Source: a virus. From it: a stretch of 46,279 bases of DNA. Under the pieces are notes generated by a model. It saw only the letters and a list, made by a program, of their open reading frames with translations, was not told the origin of the DNA and did no database searches. A program made the position numbers and the translations under genes. Location: the IMG/VR virus record IMGVR_UViG_3300005265_000032, positions 1 to 46,279 of that record. One strand, 5' to 3'. Numbering within the stretch: the first letter of the stretch is position 1; each line of letters starts with the position of its first letter. Of the stretch, positions 7,134-27,402 are shown piece after piece.

Positions 7134-8486
7134 TTATCGTGCCCGCGGGATAGGAACTTTGGGTTTATGCAAGGGCGTGTGCAGCGCTGCAAGAACTGCA
7201 TATCGAAGTGCGTCGAGCCGATGATACTTATCTTTATCCTTGATCTCTTCTGTGAGCTCGCCGTTTTTGTCTATCTTTCGACTGTACTGAGAGAACTCGC
7301 TGAAAATGTCTGGGAAATCGGATAAGGAACCTGATGGAGAATGCACTTCGCAGTTATCAAAGAAAAACAGCCGCTTTTCTTTTAGTAATTCGATAACACG
7401 ATCGATGCCCGATTCGACATCGGAAATTGGCGGGGGAGTAACGGCAACGCCCGCTTCTTGCCAGTCCAGTCGGAATTGCTTTTCAGATGCAGCGCCGCCG
7501 CACCATTTCACCACTCGCTCTTTTGCCGTGCGTTGAAGCGCACGAGTTGCATGTTGAGACGATGTTAAATTTCCCTCAACTATGACCCGATATGCATAAA
7601 ACGCTTTTTTTGATATGTCTTCAGCAAGATAAAGTGTAGCGGTGTGGATGGCACCCGGATCGATACCAACAAATCTGGGCCATTCCGCTGGGATGTCAAA
7701 TGGTTTAACAATGTGTGTGCTTTCATCAAAATCATGGTAAATCTGCCCTGTTGGATGGGAATACTGAGCGTCGTAGAGCATGGAGAACTTCCAGGGTGGG
7801 AGCGTTTTCTTTGCACGGTTGTATTCTCTGCGTGGAAAAGCCGGATTGGCTATGCTGGGAAATTGAATGACATCGATAGTTTCATCCCCTTTCTCCCAGC
7901 GATCGTATATCTCGCGTTTGAGCCACGAAATATTGTATAGAGTAGTAGTTGCGAGAATTCGACCTTCTGATAAGGACAAACGGCGTAGAACTGCAAGCCA
8001 AGCTTCCAGCGAAAATGAATCTAACCCTATTTCGTCTAGCCATGCGGAACGGACCGTAGCGGACTCCAGTCCGCCGGCTCCAACTGATTCCCGCTTTGTG
8101 CCTGCCACTGCGCTGCGCAGTATTATCCGCCCCCACATGGGGTCATTGGCGAGTTCAGCTTCAAATTTGCCTGTTATAGGATTTCTGATTTCCATGACCC
8201 GCTCACTTGCGAAGAAACGCCCGATGCCCAATACTTGCTCAAAGACGTAGCGCAATGCAGGGAGCATTTTCATACGGAAGAGATCAAAAGTAGAAGTGAC
8301 AGCGAGATGGTCGCCCCCTTGAGACCGTTTGATTTCGCGATATAACCACCATGGCCCCCAAGATGTCTTCCCGCTTTGAGTCCCACCCAAAACAAATACG
8401 AACCGCTTTTGAGAGTCCCATGCTTTTTTCTGCCCTGGATGGAAATTGAGGCATACTTTTCCATCTTTAATTTCGACAAGTTCCAT
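7134..8486 (-). CDS. terL: Terminase large subunit (packaging ATPase and nuclease)
   Basis: TerL pumps DNA into the prohead and cuts the concatemer. The 450-residue length is normal. The ATPase half shows Walker A GGTQSGKTS (Lys40), then Walker B SAWLDEIG (Asp151-Glu152) and a TTT coupling motif. The nuclease half has an RNase H-like FVGIDPG (Asp276), and a further acidic residue lies in the KYHRLDALRYA segment near the C-terminus. It follows the small subunit by about 35 bp and probably shares its transcript. This marks a tailed-virus-like packaging machine. Confidence 0.93.
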   Translation of the reverse strand: MELVEIKDGKVCLNFHPGQKKAWDSQKRFVFVLGGTQSGKTSWGPWWLYREIKRSQGGDHLAVTSTFDLFRMKMLPALRYVFEQVLGIGRFFASERVMEIRNPITGKFEAELANDPMWGRIILRSAVAGTKRESVGAGGLESATVRSAWLDEIGLDSFSLEAWLAVLRRLSLSEGRILATTTLYNISWLKREIYDRWEKGDETIDVIQFPSIANPAFPRREYNRAKKTLPPWKFSMLYDAQYSHPTGQIYHDFDESTHIVKPFDIPAEWPRFVGIDPGAIHTATLYLAEDISKKAFYAYRVIVEGNLTSSQHATRALQRTAKERVVKWCGGAASEKQFRLDWQEAGVAVTPPPISDVESGIDRVIELLKEKRLFFFDNCEVHSPSGSLSDFPDIFSEFSQYSRKIDKNGELTEEIKDKDKYHRLDALRYAVLAALHTPLHKPKVPIPRAR

Positions 8487-8521: not shown

Positions 8522-8977
8522 CTAATCTTTTCTCTTTTGCTCGTGGATTTCGATAATTTGAATTTCATGATGATGGTTGACTGCTTTTTCTTCAGGCTCG
8601 CCGATAAGTTGCAAGGCAAGCTTAATGGTGGCATTCAGAGTGGCATGATCTTCGATGGGAAACTTTGGGTCGCCATTGGGTAGAAAAGCAGTGGCGATTC
8701 TTTTTTCCGTTTCCATAAGCCACTTAGCCTTACGATCGATGTTGGCTTTCGTGGTCTTCTTATCGATGCCCGCTGCAACAGCTTTGTCCTTGATTGCAAC
8801 GCGCTGCTGCCAGTGGAACCATTTAGACCAGTTTTGAAGCGTGCGGAGCGAGGGTTGCGTTTCTGACGCAATATCGATGAAATGTTGGCGCAACTTAGCA
8901 AGGCTGCGCCCTGCGCCCATAGCATAATAAGCTTCAAAAGCTGCTGCTTGCTCCGCTGTTTCCTGGTGTTGCGTCAT
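8522..8977 (-). CDS. terS: Terminase small subunit
   Basis: This 151-residue protein lies directly upstream of terL. An N-terminal helix-turn-helix-like part (ending near LRTLQNWSKW) would recognise the packaging site, followed by a helical middle and a charged tail, as in phage small terminases. GGAGGTCTTGAAC precedes ATG 8977, which overlaps the stop of the TBP gene (ATGA). The call rests on position, size and the helix-turn-helix pattern rather than on strong motifs. Confidence 0.7.
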   Translation of the reverse strand: MTQHQETAEQAAAFEAYYAMGAGRSLAKLRQHFIDIASETQPSLRTLQNWSKWFHWQQRVAIKDKAVAAGIDKKTTKANIDRKAKWLMETEKRIATAFLPNGDPKFPIEDHATLNATIKLALQLIGEPEEKAVNHHHEIQIIEIHEQKRKD

Positions 8978-9603
8978 GTCTTGTTCAAGACCTCCGGATG
9001 CTCAAGGCTAATTTTAAAAAGAAGGGAAGAGAGTTTAAGAGCGTGAAATTCGAGTTCGGGAAGCGACCGGAAACCAGTGAGTGTTATCTTCCCAGAGGGA
9101 AATATGAGTGCGGTATAGTGAGGTTTGTGCTCATGAAAGTAAAAAGTGATACAATTGACGAGATGCTCGTGGCTGTCCTTCTCAGAAAAAAGAGGAGAGG
9201 GGTCATAAGAACAGTTAGGTAGATAAGTGGCAAGTTCAGAAAGATTAAAAGAATAGAAAAAATCAGAGAAACCTACAATGTTAAGAACTTCGTATCGATC
9301 AGCAAGTTTGAGATCGAAATCAGGAAGGAATTTGGCGGATAGCCAAGTAAAAGAATCATCAAGTTCATCAAGTGAGCGAGCAGCACGGGACATAACTGTT
9401 CCAGTGCGAAAGATGGAGAACTTAACACGGTTATGAGGAATGAAGATGCGCGAAAGAACGGCTTGATGATCAAACGGGTGCTTAGATTCGAGTGCGGAGA
9501 GAGAGAAAGGCGGGACGAGTTGAGATTTAGCGATGATGTTGGTGACTTCTATCTCAGGTTTCTCCGCCTTCTTCACGCTTCTTGGTTGGAGTTGAGGGGG
9601 CAT
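8974..9603 (-). CDS. Virus-encoded TATA-binding protein (divergent)
   Basis: TBP binds TATA boxes and recruits TFB and RNA polymerase in archaea. This product of about 209 residues has the two tandem TBP repeats. The first begins EIEVTNIIAKS and contains VKFSIFRTGTVMSR; the second begins YEVLNIVGFSD and contains HYTALIFPSGKITLTG. The second match is very close to the family signature (T-LIF-SGK--TG--S). The repeats are far from each other and from typical host TBPs. I choose ATG 9603 because a TATA element lies about 30 bp upstream; the longer frame to 9645 only translates that promoter. It overlaps terS by four bases and may direct transcription of late genes. Confidence 0.82.
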   Translation of the reverse strand: MPPQLQPRSVKKAEKPEIEVTNIIAKSQLVPPFSLSALESKHPFDHQAVLSRIFIPHNRVKFSIFRTGTVMSRAARSLDELDDSFTWLSAKFLPDFDLKLADRYEVLNIVGFSDFFYSFNLSELATYLPNCSYDPSPLFSEKDSHEHLVNCITFYFHEHKPHYTALIFPSGKITLTGFRSLPELEFHALKLSSLLFKISLEHPEVLNKT

Positions 9604-9626
9604 GCCTAGTAGTAGTACATAGAGGC

Positions 9627-9640
9627 ATATAAAATATATA
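9627..9640 (-). promoter_or_regulatory. TATA region of the TBP/terminase operon
   Basis: The minus strand has TATATATTTTATATG centred about 30 bp before ATG 9603. This placement supports a leaderless transcript beginning at or near that codon and argues against the upstream in-frame ATG. Confidence 0.6.
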
Positions 9641-9821
9641 GTCATATAGAGTTTTCACTTGCGGGATCTATGCTTGTCTCTTCACTATTCTTCTCTCTCT
9701 TTTGCCCCATCCATCTTACTGTATTAGATTGTATTACATTGTGCTTGTGACGTAGTACACTGTGTTGCATTGTGATACATGTTTGAATCGGAAATAGAAA
9801 ACAACAGAAGCAACAGCGAAG

Positions 9822-9872
9822 CCGCTCCTGCGGAGCGGCGCATGTAATAACGAAGCCGCTCCTGCGGAGCGG
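9822..9872. repeat. Two tandem copies of the 17-bp hairpin repeat
   Basis: Copies at 9822-9838 and 9856-9872 read CCGCTCCTGCGGAGCGG, a perfect 7-bp stem with a TGC loop, separated by CGCATGTAATAACGAAG. The spacing is 34 bp. The same unit occurs five times at 42265-42409 with a 32-bp period. Confidence 0.9.
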
Positions 9873-9892
9873 CGCATGTAATAACGAACAAT

Positions 9893-10169
9893 CAAAGGGG
9901 GGGCTATGATCTCTAATACAAGGAACGGAGTGGTCTGCGGGGAGAGCCGCCTTATGATAAAATTTTAGCAAATTCCCGCTGCGTCTCGATATAAAATCGA
10001 GAAAGCGCAGCGTCTCGATTTTAGGTCGAGAAAGCAGGAGACGGAGTTAGGGAATTTGCGGTTTCAATCAGCACAAGATTATACAGGAATCTAAAAGTTA
10101 TCGTGCTGATTGAAAAAAATTTTACTCTCCCCGCAGAGCGCTCCGTTCAGTAAAAAAAGCCCCCCAAAG
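9893..10169. repeat. Branched nested palindrome 1 (cloverleaf-like)
   Basis: The outer arms are GAACGGAG (9923-9930) with CTCCGTTC (10141-10148), and CTGCGGGGAGAG (9935-9946) with CTCTCCCCGCAG (10125-10136). Beyond them GGGGGGCT can pair with AGCCCCCC at 10158-10165. Inside are two separate branches: GCAAATTCCC (9968-9977) with GGGAATTTGC (10050-10059), which contains smaller TCTCGAT/ATCGAGA hairpins, and TTTCAATCAGCAC (10062-10074) with GTGCTGATTGAAA (10103-10115). The arms listed are exact, so this is unlikely by chance. Confidence 0.9.
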
Positions 10170-10400
10170 CAGGATTGGGCGGTCCAAACAATATTAAATA
10201 ACGCCTGTTCTTATACGATCCATCTATCTTGAGATACCGCCCCGCCCGGGAGTTTCACCCGGCACTACCGCGCATCGAGCGCTACTCCGCGTGGTCTCGG
10301 TCGACATTGCGCCTGCGGGAATCATGATAGAAGCGAATCGCCAGCCTGTCATTGCCCCTCCTTTTATGCTTGAGTTTTATTATATATAAAATTCTCAATA

Positions 10401-10478
10401 GCGTTAATACCACCTCATTCTGTATAACGTTGATACTTTCTCGATCTGTATAACGTTGATACTTTCTCATCCGTAGCA
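10401..10478. repeat. Iteron cluster A (three 26-bp units)
   Basis: Units start at 10401, 10427 and 10453 with an exact 26-bp period. The core is ACGTTGATACTTTCTCGATC followed by TGTATA. The joint between units, GTATAACGTTGATAC, is nearly palindromic and could bind a dimeric protein once per period. Related clusters lie at 13642, 42428 and 42816. Confidence 0.9.
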
Positions 10479-10925: not shown

Positions 10926-11408
10926 TTACTTTTGGAGTGGACCCATTTTCGCGGCATCAAACGGAAGTGATGGTTCCGCATCATAGGTAGGCACGCCGTT
11001 TTCTTGCATCCATTTCTCGAGTTCACGGTGCGCTTCCATGCTGCGATAGTATTTGCATCTGTATTCTTCTGCGGGCGAAAGTTGCCACTTGCGCACTCTG
11101 CGTTTTGAATGCGCCTCCTGATGTTGGGCGCTGCGGTGCGATTGTTTGAATACGCTTGAGAGCTGATAGGCGGTTATCTTTGGGTCATAGTCTTCCCACT
11201 GCGCATGCTCATCAATAATTTTGAATGCCTCATCGTAACTGTAACCGGCATATTTGAGGAAGCCTGCCAGATATAATCGTTCACTATGAGTTGGGTGTAT
11301 TGCCTGCAAGATGTCAAAGAGGTCCAGCCGTTTTTTGATACTGTATATTTTGTGAAGAAAATTAAAAGAGGGAGTTGGTTGGACTCCCTCAGTTCCTGTT
11401 GCATTCAT
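10926..11408 (-). CDS. Possible primase-type C-terminal domain protein
   Basis: This 160-residue protein has a helical core around residues 38-95 (PTHSERLYLAGFLKYAGYS, then a segment ending DPKITAYQLSSVF). It resembles the helical PriCT/PriL-like segment found after archaeo-eukaryotic primase domains, where a His/Arg helix is followed by a glycine turn. No catalytic primase domain and no Cys cluster are present, so it could be a stand-alone accessory or only a look-alike. GGAGG lies 12 bp before the ATG. It is the last gene of the early block before the large non-coding region. Confidence 0.4.
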   Translation of the reverse strand: MNATGTEGVQPTPSFNFLHKIYSIKKRLDLFDILQAIHPTHSERLYLAGFLKYAGYSYDEAFKIIDEHAQWEDYDPKITAYQLSSVFKQSHRSAQHQEAHSKRRVRKWQLSPAEEYRCKYYRSMEAHRELEKWMQENGVPTYDAEPSLPFDAAKMGPLQK

Positions 11409-13276: not shown

Positions 13277-13420
13277 GGGATTATATGACTTCCCGCCAGA
13301 GTAAAGTTTTAAGTCTGATTAAAATCGAGAAAGCGGCTTCAAGTGGTCTACTACGGAGCGTCTCGATTTTAGGCAGACTTATAAAGTTTACCTGCGCGGA
13401 TAAAGAAGTCATATAATCCC
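13277..13420. repeat. Nested palindrome 2, GGATTATATGACT ends
   Basis: Outer arms GGGATTATATGACTTC (13277-13292) and GAAGTCATATAATCCC (13405-13420) match over 16 bp. Inner arms AAGTCTG (13311-13317) with CAGACTT (13374-13380), and AAAATCGAGA (13321-13330) with TCTCGATTTT (13361-13370), match exactly with symmetric 3-bp internal loops. Its ends are shared with palindrome 4 at 42708-42799. Confidence 0.9.
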
Positions 13421-13451: not shown

Positions 13452-13596
13452 GGGATTTTCGAGGCTCGTTTTTAGAGCGGCTTGATATTCGAAAAGATAA
13501 TTTGGCAGACTAACCTCTCAAAAATGGATGAATGCCAAATTCTTGCCGCTCTAAAAATCGCGAAAGCGACAGCCCGCTGCGAGCCTCGAAAATCCC
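13452..13596. repeat. Nested palindrome 3 (three concentric stems)
   Basis: Three perfect stems lie one inside another: GGGATTTTCGAGGCTCG (13452-13468) with its complement at 13580-13596 (17 bp); TTTTTAGAGCGGC (13469-13481) with 13545-13557 (13 bp); AATTTGGCA (13499-13507) with 13533-13541 (9 bp). A small TCGC-GAAA-GCGA hairpin sits between the outer two on the right side. Confidence 0.9.
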
Positions 13597-13641: not shown

Positions 13642-13780
13642 ACGTTGATACATTTCGATCTATATAGCGTTAATACTTTCTCGATCTGTATAGCGTTAAT
13701 ACTTTCTCGATCTGTATAACGTTGATACCATCTCGCTCTGTATAAGGTTGATACTTTCTCATCCTGTATAGCGTTTTTTT
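13642..13780. repeat. Iteron cluster B (five units plus a partial)
   Basis: Units start at 13642, 13667, 13693, 13719, 13745 and 13771, all 26 bp apart except the first (25). The consensus matches cluster A. The array overlaps the last codons of the Hjc-like gene, whose C-terminal Tyr-Thr-Gly is encoded by repeat sequence. Confidence 0.9.
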
Positions 13781-14061
13781 TCATAGATGATGTCGAAGCA
13801 AATCTCATTCTCTCCATTTACACGTGCATTGAGTACTCGGGACCCGCATTGCCTGCCAAGTGCCTGCAATCGCGATCTGGTGTATTGGCGGAGTTTTCCA
13901 TGTCCATTACCACGAGCGCGGATGAACGTTACTTTGCCGTTTTTCATTGCGATGAGGTCAATTGGCTCTCGATCTTCCGAGTCTGCGTATGGTGCTACTT
14001 GGATAACATGCAGCCCCTGCTTTTCTTGGTTGCGCTTAACGCGCTTGGTGAAGTTTTTCAT
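13759..14061 (-). CDS. Hjc/VRR-NUC-like PD-(D/E)XK nuclease
   Basis: The product of about 100 residues has the order expected for archaeal Holliday-junction resolvase-like nucleases: a basic helix (NFTKRVKRNQEKQG), a strand, an acidic DREPIDLIAMKNGKVTFIRA segment, then a helix (QYTRSRLQALGRQCG) and a last strand. The usual Glu-X-Lys triplet is not obvious (FIRAR in its place), so it may be inactive or divergent. ATG 14061 is one base after the previous stop. Its tail runs into iteron DNA. Confidence 0.5.
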   Translation of the reverse strand: MKNFTKRVKRNQEKQGLHVIQVAPYADSEDREPIDLIAMKNGKVTFIRARGNGHGKLRQYTRSRLQALGRQCGSRVLNARVNGENEICFDIIYEKKRYTG

Positions 14062-14062
14062 T

Positions 14063-14242
14063 TTACCGTATTCCAAACCTAACTACCTTTTTCTCTTCAT
14101 CCCAGTACGCCCTGATGTTCAATCTGCCTTCTCGCATGAGCTGCAGCATCTGCTCGTTGCGACTGTAGCGTTCCGCCTGGGTTAGCGTTATTTCTTTTAG
14201 CCTCCCCGATTCCAAGCCGAGTTTGATCTCTGCGAGTTTCAT
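14063..14242 (-). CDS. Hypothetical protein (59 aa)
   Basis: ATG 14242 overlaps the IscB stop by one base. The helical product contains LTQAERYSRNEQMLQLMREG and ends with a strand-forming YWDEEKKVVRFGI. Because the IscB element abuts it, its original promoter and perhaps its first codons may have been altered by the insertion. No family is recognised. Confidence 0.5.
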   Translation of the reverse strand: MKLAEIKLGLESGRLKEITLTQAERYSRNEQMLQLMREGRLNIRAYWDEEKKVVRFGIR

Positions 14243-15516
14243 CACACATGGGCAAGGATACCTCGTGCTTCAGCACGGGAAGGAATTGCCCTTCTCACCT
14301 CCTCTATTCTTCCTCTTGCTCTTTCTACAAGTGTCAGTTTCTTATAACTCACAGAATCGCTTACCTTCTCTCCATCAATTGTTTTTAGATTAAAGTGACC
14401 ACTGCTTCTCAATCCGAATATGTAGCATTTTGCTTTTCCATACATCACCTTATCAAACCTCCGGAATCCTTTTACTTCCTTTACTGTATTTCGCTTCCTT
14501 CTGCCGCCTTTTAGCAGGTTCGCCTTGAACAAACTCCTGTTCTGCCTTCTTACCTGCTTGCCCTTATAGACATATCCTGCTCGTTCCTGCCCCGTTCCCC
14601 CCGCGATAACAAACGCATCGTTTACGTGCGACTTCTCTATCCCAAGCTTCGTTCTCCAGTATTTTGTTATGCTGCCGTAAGTCCAGCCGCAGCCAAGCAT
14701 ATTCACCAGCTTCCAGCGAATGATATTCATAAACGCCGTTGCCTTCAGAGATTGTTTTGCCTGTTTCTGTATCTCCGGATAGCCGAACTCTTCGGCTGTT
14801 CTATTACCTTTTTCTTGGTTGCACTCGTGGCAAGATATTGTCAGGTTTGAGACTCTATCACTGCCTCCTCGTGACTTCGGTATGATGTGCTCTATTTCTA
14901 ACGGTACATCTGTCTTACCGCAATATGCGCATTTTCTATGGTATTTCTCCAACAAATACTCTCTTACTTCATAGCCTTGCAATTCGCCTTGCTGATATTC
15001 AACACCACTTATCTCTGGGCGCTGCATCTTCTGCGTATCAGAGCTCGCTACTTCCACGATTATCTTCGTTATCGGTAGTATTTGCTTTAGTCGTTCTATC
15101 AATTTGGCATGGCTTTGCAGCTTGTGCTCCAGCGAAGGTGCTAACCAACCGTTTTTTCTACCGCGATTGACAAATCTCGGTTTTCTATGCCATTTCCTGT
15201 TTCTTCTATCTCTTCGATACGCTCTCCTCTTCTCCAATAACCTCTTTATATCTGTTCTTAACTCCAATTCGCCTGCTATAAGTTCCCTGCTTGCTGTCAC
15301 CGCACTGTACCCGACTGTCTTGTAGCCTGCGTCTATCCCAAGTGTTATGTCCTGCTTGTAGCCGCTTGAGCCGTAGGGTAATTGTATGGTGAATGGCGTC
15401 AGGCTCACTATTTTCGCTTTTCCTTGTTTCAACAATCTTCTTGCTTTTCCTGCCGTGCATGGCATTAACTGCTTGCCATGTTTGTTCAGTACGAACACTA
15501 AAATGGAGTGTTCCAC
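14242..15516 (-). CDS. iscB: IscB RNA-guided endonuclease
   Basis: IscB is the Cas9-like nuclease of OMEGA systems. From GTG 15516 the protein has 424 residues, the family size. It starts with the PLMP-type domain (VFVLNKHGKQLMPC), then RuvC-I GIDAGYKTVG (Asp62), an Arg-rich bridge helix, RuvC-II IIVEVA (Glu155), an HNH domain with CAYC, EIEHIIP (His210) and CHEC, and RuvC-III HVNDAFVIA (Asp300). All catalytic residues are present. The frame is open to ATG 15690, but that part carries the omega RNA stem-loops, so the GTG (or GTG 15498) is the likelier start. No TnpA transposase is nearby. The element sits inside a viral gene cluster. Confidence 0.9.
   Translation of the reverse strand: MEHSILVFVLNKHGKQLMPCTAGKARRLLKQGKAKIVSLTPFTIQLPYGSSGYKQDITLGIDAGYKTVGYSAVTASRELIAGELELRTDIKRLLEKRRAYRRDRRNRKWHRKPRFVNRGRKNGWLAPSLEHKLQSHAKLIERLKQILPITKIIVEVASSDTQKMQRPEISGVEYQQGELQGYEVREYLLEKYHRKCAYCGKTDVPLEIEHIIPKSRGGSDRVSNLTISCHECNQEKGNRTAEEFGYPEIQKQAKQSLKATAFMNIIRWKLVNMLGCGWTYGSITKYWRTKLGIEKSHVNDAFVIAGGTGQERAGYVYKGKQVRRQNRSLFKANLLKGGRRKRNTVKEVKGFRRFDKVMYGKAKCYIFGLRSSGHFNLKTIDGEKVSDSVSYKKLTLVERARGRIEEVRRAIPSRAEARGILAHV
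14248..14280 (-). mobile_element. Right-end hairpin of the IscB element
   Basis: The last IscB codons read CGTGC-TGAA-GCACG on the minus strand, a perfect stem with a TGAA loop, followed by GAGGTATCCTTGCCC. Such a sub-terminal hairpin with a conserved flank is typical of IS200/IS605-type right ends, here translated as the C-terminus of IscB. Confidence 0.65.
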
Positions 15517-15529
15517 CTGTTCCCGTGTT

Positions 15530-15690
15530 TTTTGCTCCTCGGAGTTGTTGGAAAACGTTTTTAAATCCGCCACACCGCAGCTACCTCTCGCTGCTTTTAA
15601 TGACGGATCACAGTTGCTACGGGCTGGAGCAGCACCCGTAGATGTGTATGTATTTCTTCTTTCCAACTGCTGCGTATCCTCTTCTTGCAT
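15530..15690 (-). ncRNA. Putative omega RNA (HEARO-type) of IscB
   Basis: Directly upstream of the IscB GTG the minus strand folds into ordered stem-loops. CTACGGG/CCCGTAG (15641-15617) encloses an 11-base loop. Next comes an outer stem ATCCG/CGGAT (15608-15565) enclosing GCAGC/GCTGC (15594-15577). Position and order fit the guide-carrying RNA encoded before iscB. The guide should lie at its 5' end, roughly 15650-15720. The coding frame through this part has unusual composition (TSTGAAPARSN), which supports a non-coding role. Confidence 0.65.
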
Positions 15691-15719
15691 TTACGCCTCC
15701 TGATCACGTAGAGGCTTGC

Positions 15720-15818
15720 TTGCTTAACGGCAAACCTCACCCTTCAGGGCGGGGTACGTGATTTCCTCTTTGCTTACTTAACGGCAAGCCTCACCCTTCA
15801 GGGCGGGGTACGTGACTT
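15720..15818 (-). mobile_element. Left end of the IscB element with a tandem hairpin duplication
   Basis: Two near-identical copies (15727-15762 and 15781-15816, 54 bp apart) read on the minus strand TCACGTACCCCGCCC-TGAA-GGGTGAGG, then TTGCCGTTAAG. Each forms a hairpin with a TGAA loop like the right end. The outer copy supplies the last codons and the stop of the upstream gene. Confidence 0.7.
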
Positions 15819-18486: not shown

Positions 18487-19098
18487 CTAAAAATATTTAG
18501 TTAAGTCAAGTTGCTTATTTTTTTCAATCTTATCTGTTTCATTTAAATCTAATTGATAGAAGTGTTCATCTCCTGCATACTTCTTTATATACTTGATATG
18601 GACTAACCTATTATGCGTGTGATAAAGACCATTTGTGCTTACAATGCTTTCTCTTAAGTCATCAATATTGTTTTCAAACCATATTCTCAATGCTTTTGTT
18701 AATGGAAAGAAAAGGAGTTCTAACACTTCAGTTGCTTTTTCGTTTTGCCCATCGGTATTCACTGTGCCGTATGAGATATAGCCTGCTTGTAATGTATAGA
18801 ACCACCCTTTATGTCCTAATTCTTTGTTGCTCCATGTTTCAAACGGGTATGTTTTCCAACCTAAATAGTCTATTCGCCTTGTCTTTTCATCTATTGAAAA
18901 GCGTGTGGTATCTGGTCTTGTTACTACTACGTCAGTACCAAAACTGCGTTGTGCTTTTTCGTTTTTATCGAAGCGGTCTATTTTTATGCTTTTGCCAAAT
19001 ATTTTCTTGTAATAATTATTAAAACTCGCCTTTACCTCTTCGGTGTTGAATTTTTCATTACTTTTGAGCCATTCGTAATCTTTTTCGTTATGTATCAA
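18487..19098 (-). CDS. PD-(D/E)XK-like nuclease paired with the methyltransferase
   Basis: This 203-residue protein has Asp56 in SFGTDVVV, then Asp70-Glu71-Lys72 in RFSIDEKTRR, matching a PD-(D/E)XK catalytic core, followed by GHKGWFYTLQAGYISYG as in many Mrr- or restriction-like nucleases. The start is TTG 19098, overlapping the methyltransferase stop; no Met occurs inside the protein, which supports this unusual start. The tight coupling to a DNA methyltransferase suggests a restriction-modification or self/non-self discrimination role. The cleavage target is unknown. Confidence 0.6.
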   Translation of the reverse strand: MIHNEKDYEWLKSNEKFNTEEVKASFNNYYKKIFGKSIKIDRFDKNEKAQRSFGTDVVVTRPDTTRFSIDEKTRRIDYLGWKTYPFETWSNKELGHKGWFYTLQAGYISYGTVNTDGQNEKATEVLELLFFPLTKALRIWFENNIDDLRESIVSTNGLYHTHNRLVHIKYIKKYAGDEHFYQLDLNETDKIEKNKQLDLTKYF

Positions 19099-20285
19099 TT
19101 TCTAATATCCCCTTTAAACGTTTCCCAGTTTTCACGTTCAGGAAAGAATATTTGTAAGTAGGGGGGATATGATGCCCTTTCTATTATTTCGTATATCTTC
19201 TCTGGTTTCTTACTATGCTCAGCTCTCGGCGCTTCAAAAGAAGTTGGTATATCTTTTACGCGTGTAGTTAGCTTACCGGAAACAAAAAATAAACAGTGCT
19301 CTGTATTATTCCTGAAGTATGAACCCAACCCGATTGACGGCTTTATCCAAGTTAGCGCTGTTTTATATGTAAATCCCCAGTGTATTCCTAATTTTAATGC
19401 TTCATAAAGAAAATTATTTGTAGTCCAGAGGTAAAGATGGCATCCTTCTTTATCTACGTATCTTTGTATATCAAATGCCTTTAATTCATCGATACTCAGC
19501 ACAGCATATTTTGGTTTGCCTCTTCCTGCCAGCGATAAATGCTCATAGTCCCAGGGTGGGTCTATTAAAATTGTCTTGAAAACACCTTCAATCTTTTTTT
19601 GTGGTATTTGATTAATTAAGCGTTTCTCGTCTTCTTTTTGCTTCGTAATTCTTTTCATCTGACTGTAGGCATTGTGAGTCGTGATTTTATCTTCTTGCCA
19701 CTGTTTCTTTATCGGCTCTGGCGCTTCTTGATAGACTTTTTTCGCTTTTTCGTATTGCCTGCCTGAGCCGAAGCCTACATTTTTTGCTACTTTGTCGCGG
19801 GTTGCACCCTCTTCTTCCCGTATGGGAAAATTTTCCATATCGGGAATCTTATCCCCTTTTTTTAAAGTTGCTAATTTTCTCTTCTCCGCCTTCAGTCTTT
19901 CAATCGGTTCTAACTCCAACCCGCATTTGACCTTCTGATAATCATTCAAATGCCTTCTCAGTAAATTATCCTTGATCAGCGCCTCCTTTATCTGCCACTC
20001 CTCTTTTAAATCCGTTCTTATGATGCAAGGTACTTTTATGCCCAGTTCTTTCGCTATTGCGCTCCTTCTATGACCTGATATAATTAGATAATCAGCGCCT
20101 TGCGAGATAACTTGTAGCGGATCTTGAATGCCTCTGTGTTCAATATCCGCTTTCAATGTTTCATATTCTTCCGTGCTTGTTTCACCAAAGAGTTCTTCAC
20201 TTAGATTATGCTCTTGTAGCTGCTTGGGGTCCAATTCTACTATTGGTTTATCCCTTAGCAGAAAGATTGTCTGTTCACTGCTCAT
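19095..20285 (-). CDS. ParB-domain / MT-A70 adenine methyltransferase fusion
   Basis: Residues about 10-115 form a ParB/Srx-like domain with ISGHRRSAIAKELG (Arg pair at 73-74), followed by a helical ParB middle part. Residues about 230-390 are an MT-A70-type N6-adenine methyltransferase with catalytic DPPW (242-245), LYLWTTNN and an SYPPYLQIFF end. Such fusions occur in phages and mobile elements and would methylate DNA adenine at chosen sites. The gene overlaps both the upstream ribbon-helix-helix gene (ATGA) and the downstream nuclease gene (TTGA), forming a three-gene unit under one TATA promoter. Confidence 0.85.
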   Translation of the reverse strand: MSSEQTIFLLRDKPIVELDPKQLQEHNLSEELFGETSTEEYETLKADIEHRGIQDPLQVISQGADYLIISGHRRSAIAKELGIKVPCIIRTDLKEEWQIKEALIKDNLLRRHLNDYQKVKCGLELEPIERLKAEKRKLATLKKGDKIPDMENFPIREEEGATRDKVAKNVGFGSGRQYEKAKKVYQEAPEPIKKQWQEDKITTHNAYSQMKRITKQKEDEKRLINQIPQKKIEGVFKTILIDPPWDYEHLSLAGRGKPKYAVLSIDELKAFDIQRYVDKEGCHLYLWTTNNFLYEALKLGIHWGFTYKTALTWIKPSIGLGSYFRNNTEHCLFFVSGKLTTRVKDIPTSFEAPRAEHSKKPEKIYEIIERASYPPYLQIFFPERENWETFKGDIRN

Positions 20286-27213: not shown

Positions 27214-27402
27214 TCACCTCCTAAGTCTTTCTTTCTCCGGAGCAACAGGGAGAAGCGTGATAGTGGGTTGTAAGAATTTATCGTGGTTAACTTCAATGCC
27301 GACAGAGAAGGGAAGCTTATTTATGATCCGGGCAAAGTTGAGGGAGAGTGGGAGAGAGTTGCTCTTGCCCTTCTTGAGGATTATATCAGGTTGTAATTCC
27401 AT
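27214..27402 (-). CDS. Hypothetical protein (62 aa)
   Basis: A TATA box (27425-27434) lies about 27 bp before ATG 27402, giving a leaderless message that starts the short operon down to 25814. The product begins MELQPDIILKKGKSNSLPLS; no family is recognised. Confidence 0.5.
   Translation of the reverse strand: MELQPDIILKKGKSNSLPLSLNFARIINKLPFSVGIEVNHDKFLQPTITLLPVAPEKERLRR

Follow-up and report, generated by a model that had tools for sequence, protein, structure and literature searches.

The window analyzed here, a stretch of 46,279 bases from an uncultured virus (IMG/VR record IMGVR_UViG_3300005265_000032), contains four related palindromes, A, B1, B2, and C, in three non-coding regions, each of which also carries 26-bp direct repeats. 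The palindromes are probably DNA control sites, perhaps with a role in the control of replication. The most structured of them, A (9893–10169), is a branched foldback with a three-way junction; the original prediction of this structure missed its membership in the set of four, and A is better described as a member of this family than as a single element.

Judged by its gene content, the window derives from an archaeal head-tailed virus, as it encodes a terminase large subunit (TerL; 7134–8486, − strand), a terminase small subunit, a portal, a major head protein, and a maturation protease, together with a TBP-like protein and an IscB with its omegaRNA. The TBP-like gene (8974–9645, − strand; Pfam TBP, E = 2e-13) directly adjoins palindrome A. 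Its product, for which the predicted structure is poor (AlphaFold, pLDDT 47), is 71% identical to the counterpart in the metagenome-assembled genome (MAG) contig L028, where the gene likewise adjoins the terminase genes. To our knowledge, virus-encoded TBP-like genes are rare among archaeal viruses. The IscB gene and a HEARO (omegaRNA, RF02033) match lie at 14242–15818; a second copy of a 49-nt stretch from the end of the omegaRNA lies 54 bp on (15716–15764 and 15770–15818, 94%). Among the genomes searched, the nearest IscB relatives are found in MAGs labeled Methanosarcinales and Methanolliviera, and the relatives of TerL (67% identity) and of the portal (~60% identity) are found in MAGs of the class that contains the best IscB match. 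This archaeal class is probably Syntrophoarchaeia/ANME-1, an assignment based in part on the head-tailed virome of ANME-1 that has already been described (PMC9894754). Few replication genes are recognizable in the window. The gene at 19095–20285 (− strand) encodes a single protein that combines a ParB N-terminal domain with an MT-A70 methyltransferase domain. Near both contig ends (1–5500 and 45270–46279), tail-fiber-like frames contain long arrays of GGTGTGGGT-type repeats, at which the contig may have broken.

Palindrome A is non-coding and internal, and sits between the TBP-like and terminase genes on one side and the early genes on the other. It had been predicted to have an outer stem of 8 + 12 perfect pairs that encloses two stems of 10 and 13 bp, one with further hairpins inside. 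Both direct inspection of the sequence and a repeat finder confirm a branched palindrome at 9893–10169, and it is stronger than predicted. The outer 8 bp (GGGGGGCT/AGCCCCCC, 9898–9905/10158–10165) are present as described. They are followed by a 24-nt stem (9923–9946/10125–10148, 92% complementary) in which 8 bp and 13 bp, where the prediction had 12, flank a short interruption. A 9-bp closing stem absent from the prediction (TAAAATTTT/AAAATTTTA, 9958–9966/10116–10124) opens into the three-way junction with the two enclosed stems, both of which were located: the 10-bp stem (GCAAATTCCC/GGGAATTTGC, 9968–9977/10050–10059), whose inner hairpins are two 29-nt tandem units that each form a small hairpin, and the 13-bp stem (10062–10074/10103–10115). 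A 5-bp direct repeat, CAAAG, lies exactly at the borders of A (9893–9897 and 10165–10169), adjoined by inverted G-runs. The minimum free energy of A is −127.8 kcal/mol for the + strand and −122.9 kcal/mol for the − strand, with z = −12.4 and −12.3, respectively, and none of 200 shuffled sequences is as stable, which bears out the description of the structure as far beyond chance. In the fold scan, A ranks first among 576 segments of the whole genome and first among 5302 segments of this genome and ~36 related viral loci.

The next most structured segments of the genome-wide scan are B2, B1, and C, all of which are non-coding. B1 (13277–13420; outer arms GGGATTATATGACTTC/GAAGTCATATAATCCC) has an inner hairpin, TAAAATCGAGAAAGCG ... 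CGTCTCGATTTTAGG, in common with A, and B2 (13452–13596) has outer arms GGGATTTTCGAGGCTCG/CGAGCCTCGAAAATCCC. C (42708–42799) contains a three-way junction, and its outer arms GATTATATGACT/AGTCATATAATC are common to B1. The arms shared by B1 and C, GGATTATATGACT ... AGTCATATAATC, include a G.G mismatch within AAAGTTT arms in both palindromes, and the interiors that they enclose are largely different; with the arm columns registered by hand, three pairs are changed on both sides with pairing kept. In local alignments against shuffled controls, none of 500 shuffles is as good as the A–B1 or the B1–C similarity, and five of 500 are as good as that of A–B2; the A–C, B2–C, and B1–B2 comparisons have no significance on their own.

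The 26-bp direct repeats accompany the palindromes at all three loci in one orientation (+ strand), with nine matches against zero expected. They are found at 10391–10468 in the A region (about three copies), at 13643–13775 in the B region (about five copies), and at 42425–42484 and 42822–42871 in the C region, and each repeat contains an imperfect dyad, GTATAACGTTGATAC. A TATA-like box (10381–10390) lies between A and its 26-bp repeats. Two of the regions additionally hold tandem units of 32–34 bp built on the hairpin GCCGCTCCTGCGGAGCGGC: two 34-bp units precede A (9817–9888), and five 32-bp units are present in the C region (42265–42418). A shared word, ATCGAGA(A/T)AG, occurs eight times in the window compared with 0.27 expected. 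Seven of the eight occurrences belong to these three regions, where the word lies within palindromes A and B1 and, in reverse orientation, within the 26-bp direct repeats.

Folding is strong for either strand of each palindrome (z = −5.6 to −13.7), with G.U making up 0–5% of the pairs; the corresponding values for the omegaRNA of this genome, on its own strand, are z = −3.4 and 9%. The palindromes pair almost perfectly, with little G.U and symmetrically between the strands, which sets them apart from the omegaRNA and, indirectly, favors DNA palindromes over folded RNA. Both DNA palindromes and recent inverted duplications yield such symmetry, and homogenization of the arms could keep them complementary without selection. 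If A, B1, B2, and C were instead transcribed and acted as structured RNAs (regulators, decoys, or packaging RNAs), the depth of the folds (z down to −13.7), the slightly better folding of the + strand in all four palindromes, the TATA-like box beside A, and the survival of B1/C pairing through a few double changes would be accounted for. We consider this unlikely, however, given the few G.U pairs and the strong folding of both strands, and no Rfam family matches A at either gathering or permissive thresholds. Searches of phages, plasmids, viral contigs, and the host phylum also gave no homologues outside this genome in which covariation could be checked. A resembles the HEARO/omegaRNA (RF02033) of this genome in being a large structured stretch in the same virus but differs from it in not matching that family, in folding equally on both strands, and in having no linked nuclease gene.

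On present sequence comparisons, the A family appears to have no counterpart in any collection searched. No relatives of A were found in phages and plasmids by blastn, and exact patterns for the A stem, the 26-bp repeat, the core hairpin, and the C outer stem had no match in viral contigs. A, B, and the core hairpin had no match in 58 genomes of the probable host class, among which the true host may be absent. Across 392 genomes of the archaeal phylum, only four weak matches of 28–46 bp were obtained. The best of these pairs 10084–10122 of A (the loop and 3′ arm of the 13-bp stem) with L078:1501–1539, just upstream of an acetyltransferase-like host gene (39 nt, 87% identical; E = 6e-6 for one genome, with 392 searched); this likeness may be due to chance. 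The 26-bp repeat pattern is no commoner in host genomes than a control, and no tandem array was seen in the matches read. The 13-bp stem of A (GTGCTGATTGAAA) was also considered as a mimic of a CRISPR repeat and rejected, as no array-like pile-up was present in the 58 genomes. Likewise, searches with the TBP-like and primase-like neighbor proteins returned no viral relatives.

The gene context of A and C can be compared with that in related contigs. In L028 (TerL 67% identical), the TBP-like gene adjoins the terminase genes, with protease-like and tail genes preceding and no gap. In L099 and L100, a homologue of 38251–41547 comes directly after the portal gene and shares its strand, whereas in the window the portal is on the strand opposite to 38251–41547, with two accessory genes and region C intervening. 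A and C are thus located where gene order departs from that of relatives. Compared with L099 and L100, the stretch 41579–45191 (+ strand; PAPS-reductase, glycosyltransferase, and portal genes), which includes region C, appears to have been inverted or inserted. The fold scan found no comparable palindrome in the relatives' contigs, which are fragments; the best z was −5.6, at an AAAAG-rich repeat. Since relatives at 60–67% TerL or portal identity have no comparable palindrome in these fragments, the group does not share the palindrome as a conserved, essential site. Two features of the related contigs were observed in passing. The TerL of L028 (9137–11704) is encoded by a single open frame of 855 aa, in which an intein-like insert of ~400 aa immediately follows the Walker A region. 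In L035 (1500–1680), tandem repeats GGGGGATTTTTTCTCACG...CAATATAA and their inverted counterpart adjoin the terminase gene on its upstream side; this is another foldback, unrelated in sequence to the A family.

These departures in gene order are among the observations that would fit non-autonomous, MITE-like foldback elements, spread within the virus or derived from the host, as would the exact bounding of A by the CAAAG direct repeat next to inverted G-runs and the common outer arms of B1 and C around largely different interiors. Like MITEs and other foldback elements, the palindromes are non-coding with inverted ends, and A has a 5-bp flanking direct repeat. The family differs from MITEs, however, in being branched and tied to tandem repeats, and no target duplication abuts B1, B2, or C. 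The constant company of the 26-bp repeats is unexpected for random insertions, and no copy was found in the 58 class genomes, the 392 phylum genomes, the viral contigs, the phages, or the plasmids. A mobile origin is, in our estimation, rather doubtful. A role in transcription control, in which the palindromes would terminate or insulate transcription and a viral regulator would use the 26-bp repeats as operators, appears improbable. A does stand between the early genes and the TBP-like and terminase genes, the 26-bp repeats hold an imperfect dyad and adjoin the TATA-like box, and the virus encodes its own TBP-like protein; yet the palindromes are far longer than terminators require, A is not followed by a T run on the + strand, and the genes on either side of C point the same way.

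The original prediction likened the shape of A to hairpin origins or folded terminal repeats. The latter does not agree with the internal position of A, and none of the four palindromes lies at an end of the contig, the position expected of a hairpin telomere. A hairpin origin is possible, as the direct repeats and the palindromes at three loci are origin-like and the strand symmetry favors DNA, but the cumulative GC skew, proposed as a check, is unsupportive. The skew has its maximum at 11,382 and its minimum at 27,238, such that a maximum, and not a minimum, is near A. A maximum would more usually mark a terminus, and the skew tracks the edges of gene blocks, so it gives no support for an origin at A. 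Pfam and PHROGs scans recognized no initiator gene (Rep, Orc/Cdc6, or similar) among the neighboring genes, giving only the TBP and a sub-threshold primase-like match at 10926–11408. A 105-aa protein encoded beside B (13759–14076, − strand) was considered as a junction resolvase and rejected, as its similarity to the archaeal Holliday junction resolvase Hjc is weak (E = 0.019) and the motif Glu/Lys are not kept; its AlphaFold model is unusable (pLDDT 44). Repeated candidate protein-binding sites, the 26-bp dyad repeats, are present beside the structures at three of three loci.

Palindromes beside direct repeats are a common origin architecture, and the herpesvirus oriL is an example from large DNA viruses of an origin built from palindromes and direct repeats. 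The loci described here are similar to oriL in having long palindromes beside repeated, putative binding sites at more than one place per genome but differ in the absence of homology, in their hosts, in the branching of the palindromes, and in that no initiator was recognized. In the archaeal virus SNJ2, a hairpin origin of ~22 nt beside the rep gene has been shown (PMC13107129). Such hairpin origins of archaeal rolling-circle replicons (Rep-Arvir/SNJ2) resemble the loci described here in that a non-coding DNA hairpin of an archaeal virus has a further inverted repeat close by. The palindromes here, in contrast, are 92–277 nt long and branched and occur as four related copies distributed over three loci, and no Rep was recognized.

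Tentatively, and with somewhat less than even confidence, we interpret the palindromes and repeats as a multi-copy cis-acting DNA site of an archaeal head-tailed virus that carries long, cruciform-capable palindromes and nearly dyad-symmetric 26-bp repeats in three non-coding regions. A viral or host protein would bind the shared word ATCGAGAAAG and the dyad repeats, the palindrome would extrude as a hairpin or branched cruciform, and the extruded form may then be recognized or processed during replication or recombination of the viral DNA; an origin is one possible sub-case. This interpretation draws on the finding that each of the four strongest folds of the genome falls in non-coding sequence, within a region that also holds 26-bp repeats, on the A–B1 and B1–C similarities that beat 500 of 500 shuffles (495 of 500 for A–B2), and on the enrichment of the shared word. 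The strong, G.U-poor folding of both strands, the three double changes in the B1/C arms, the commonness of palindrome and direct-repeat origins, and the SNJ2 precedent also argue for it. Against it stand the lack of a recognized initiator, the sign of the skew at A, the lack of a comparable palindrome in the relatives' fragments, the possible homogenization of the arms, and the slightly better folding of the + strand, which leaves some room for RNA.

We know of no described mechanism for the start of replication or for DNA partition in head-tailed viruses of uncultured methane-metabolizing archaea. It would be a long shot, but the branched cruciforms and 26-bp repeat arrays with the same recognition word at three loci per genome may represent an undescribed replication or segregation module of archaeal viruses. 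If the palindromes are mobile, they would constitute a foldback family so far known from one virus only. The four related palindromes and their shared repeats provide concrete candidate sites for protein binding, nicking, and origin activity.
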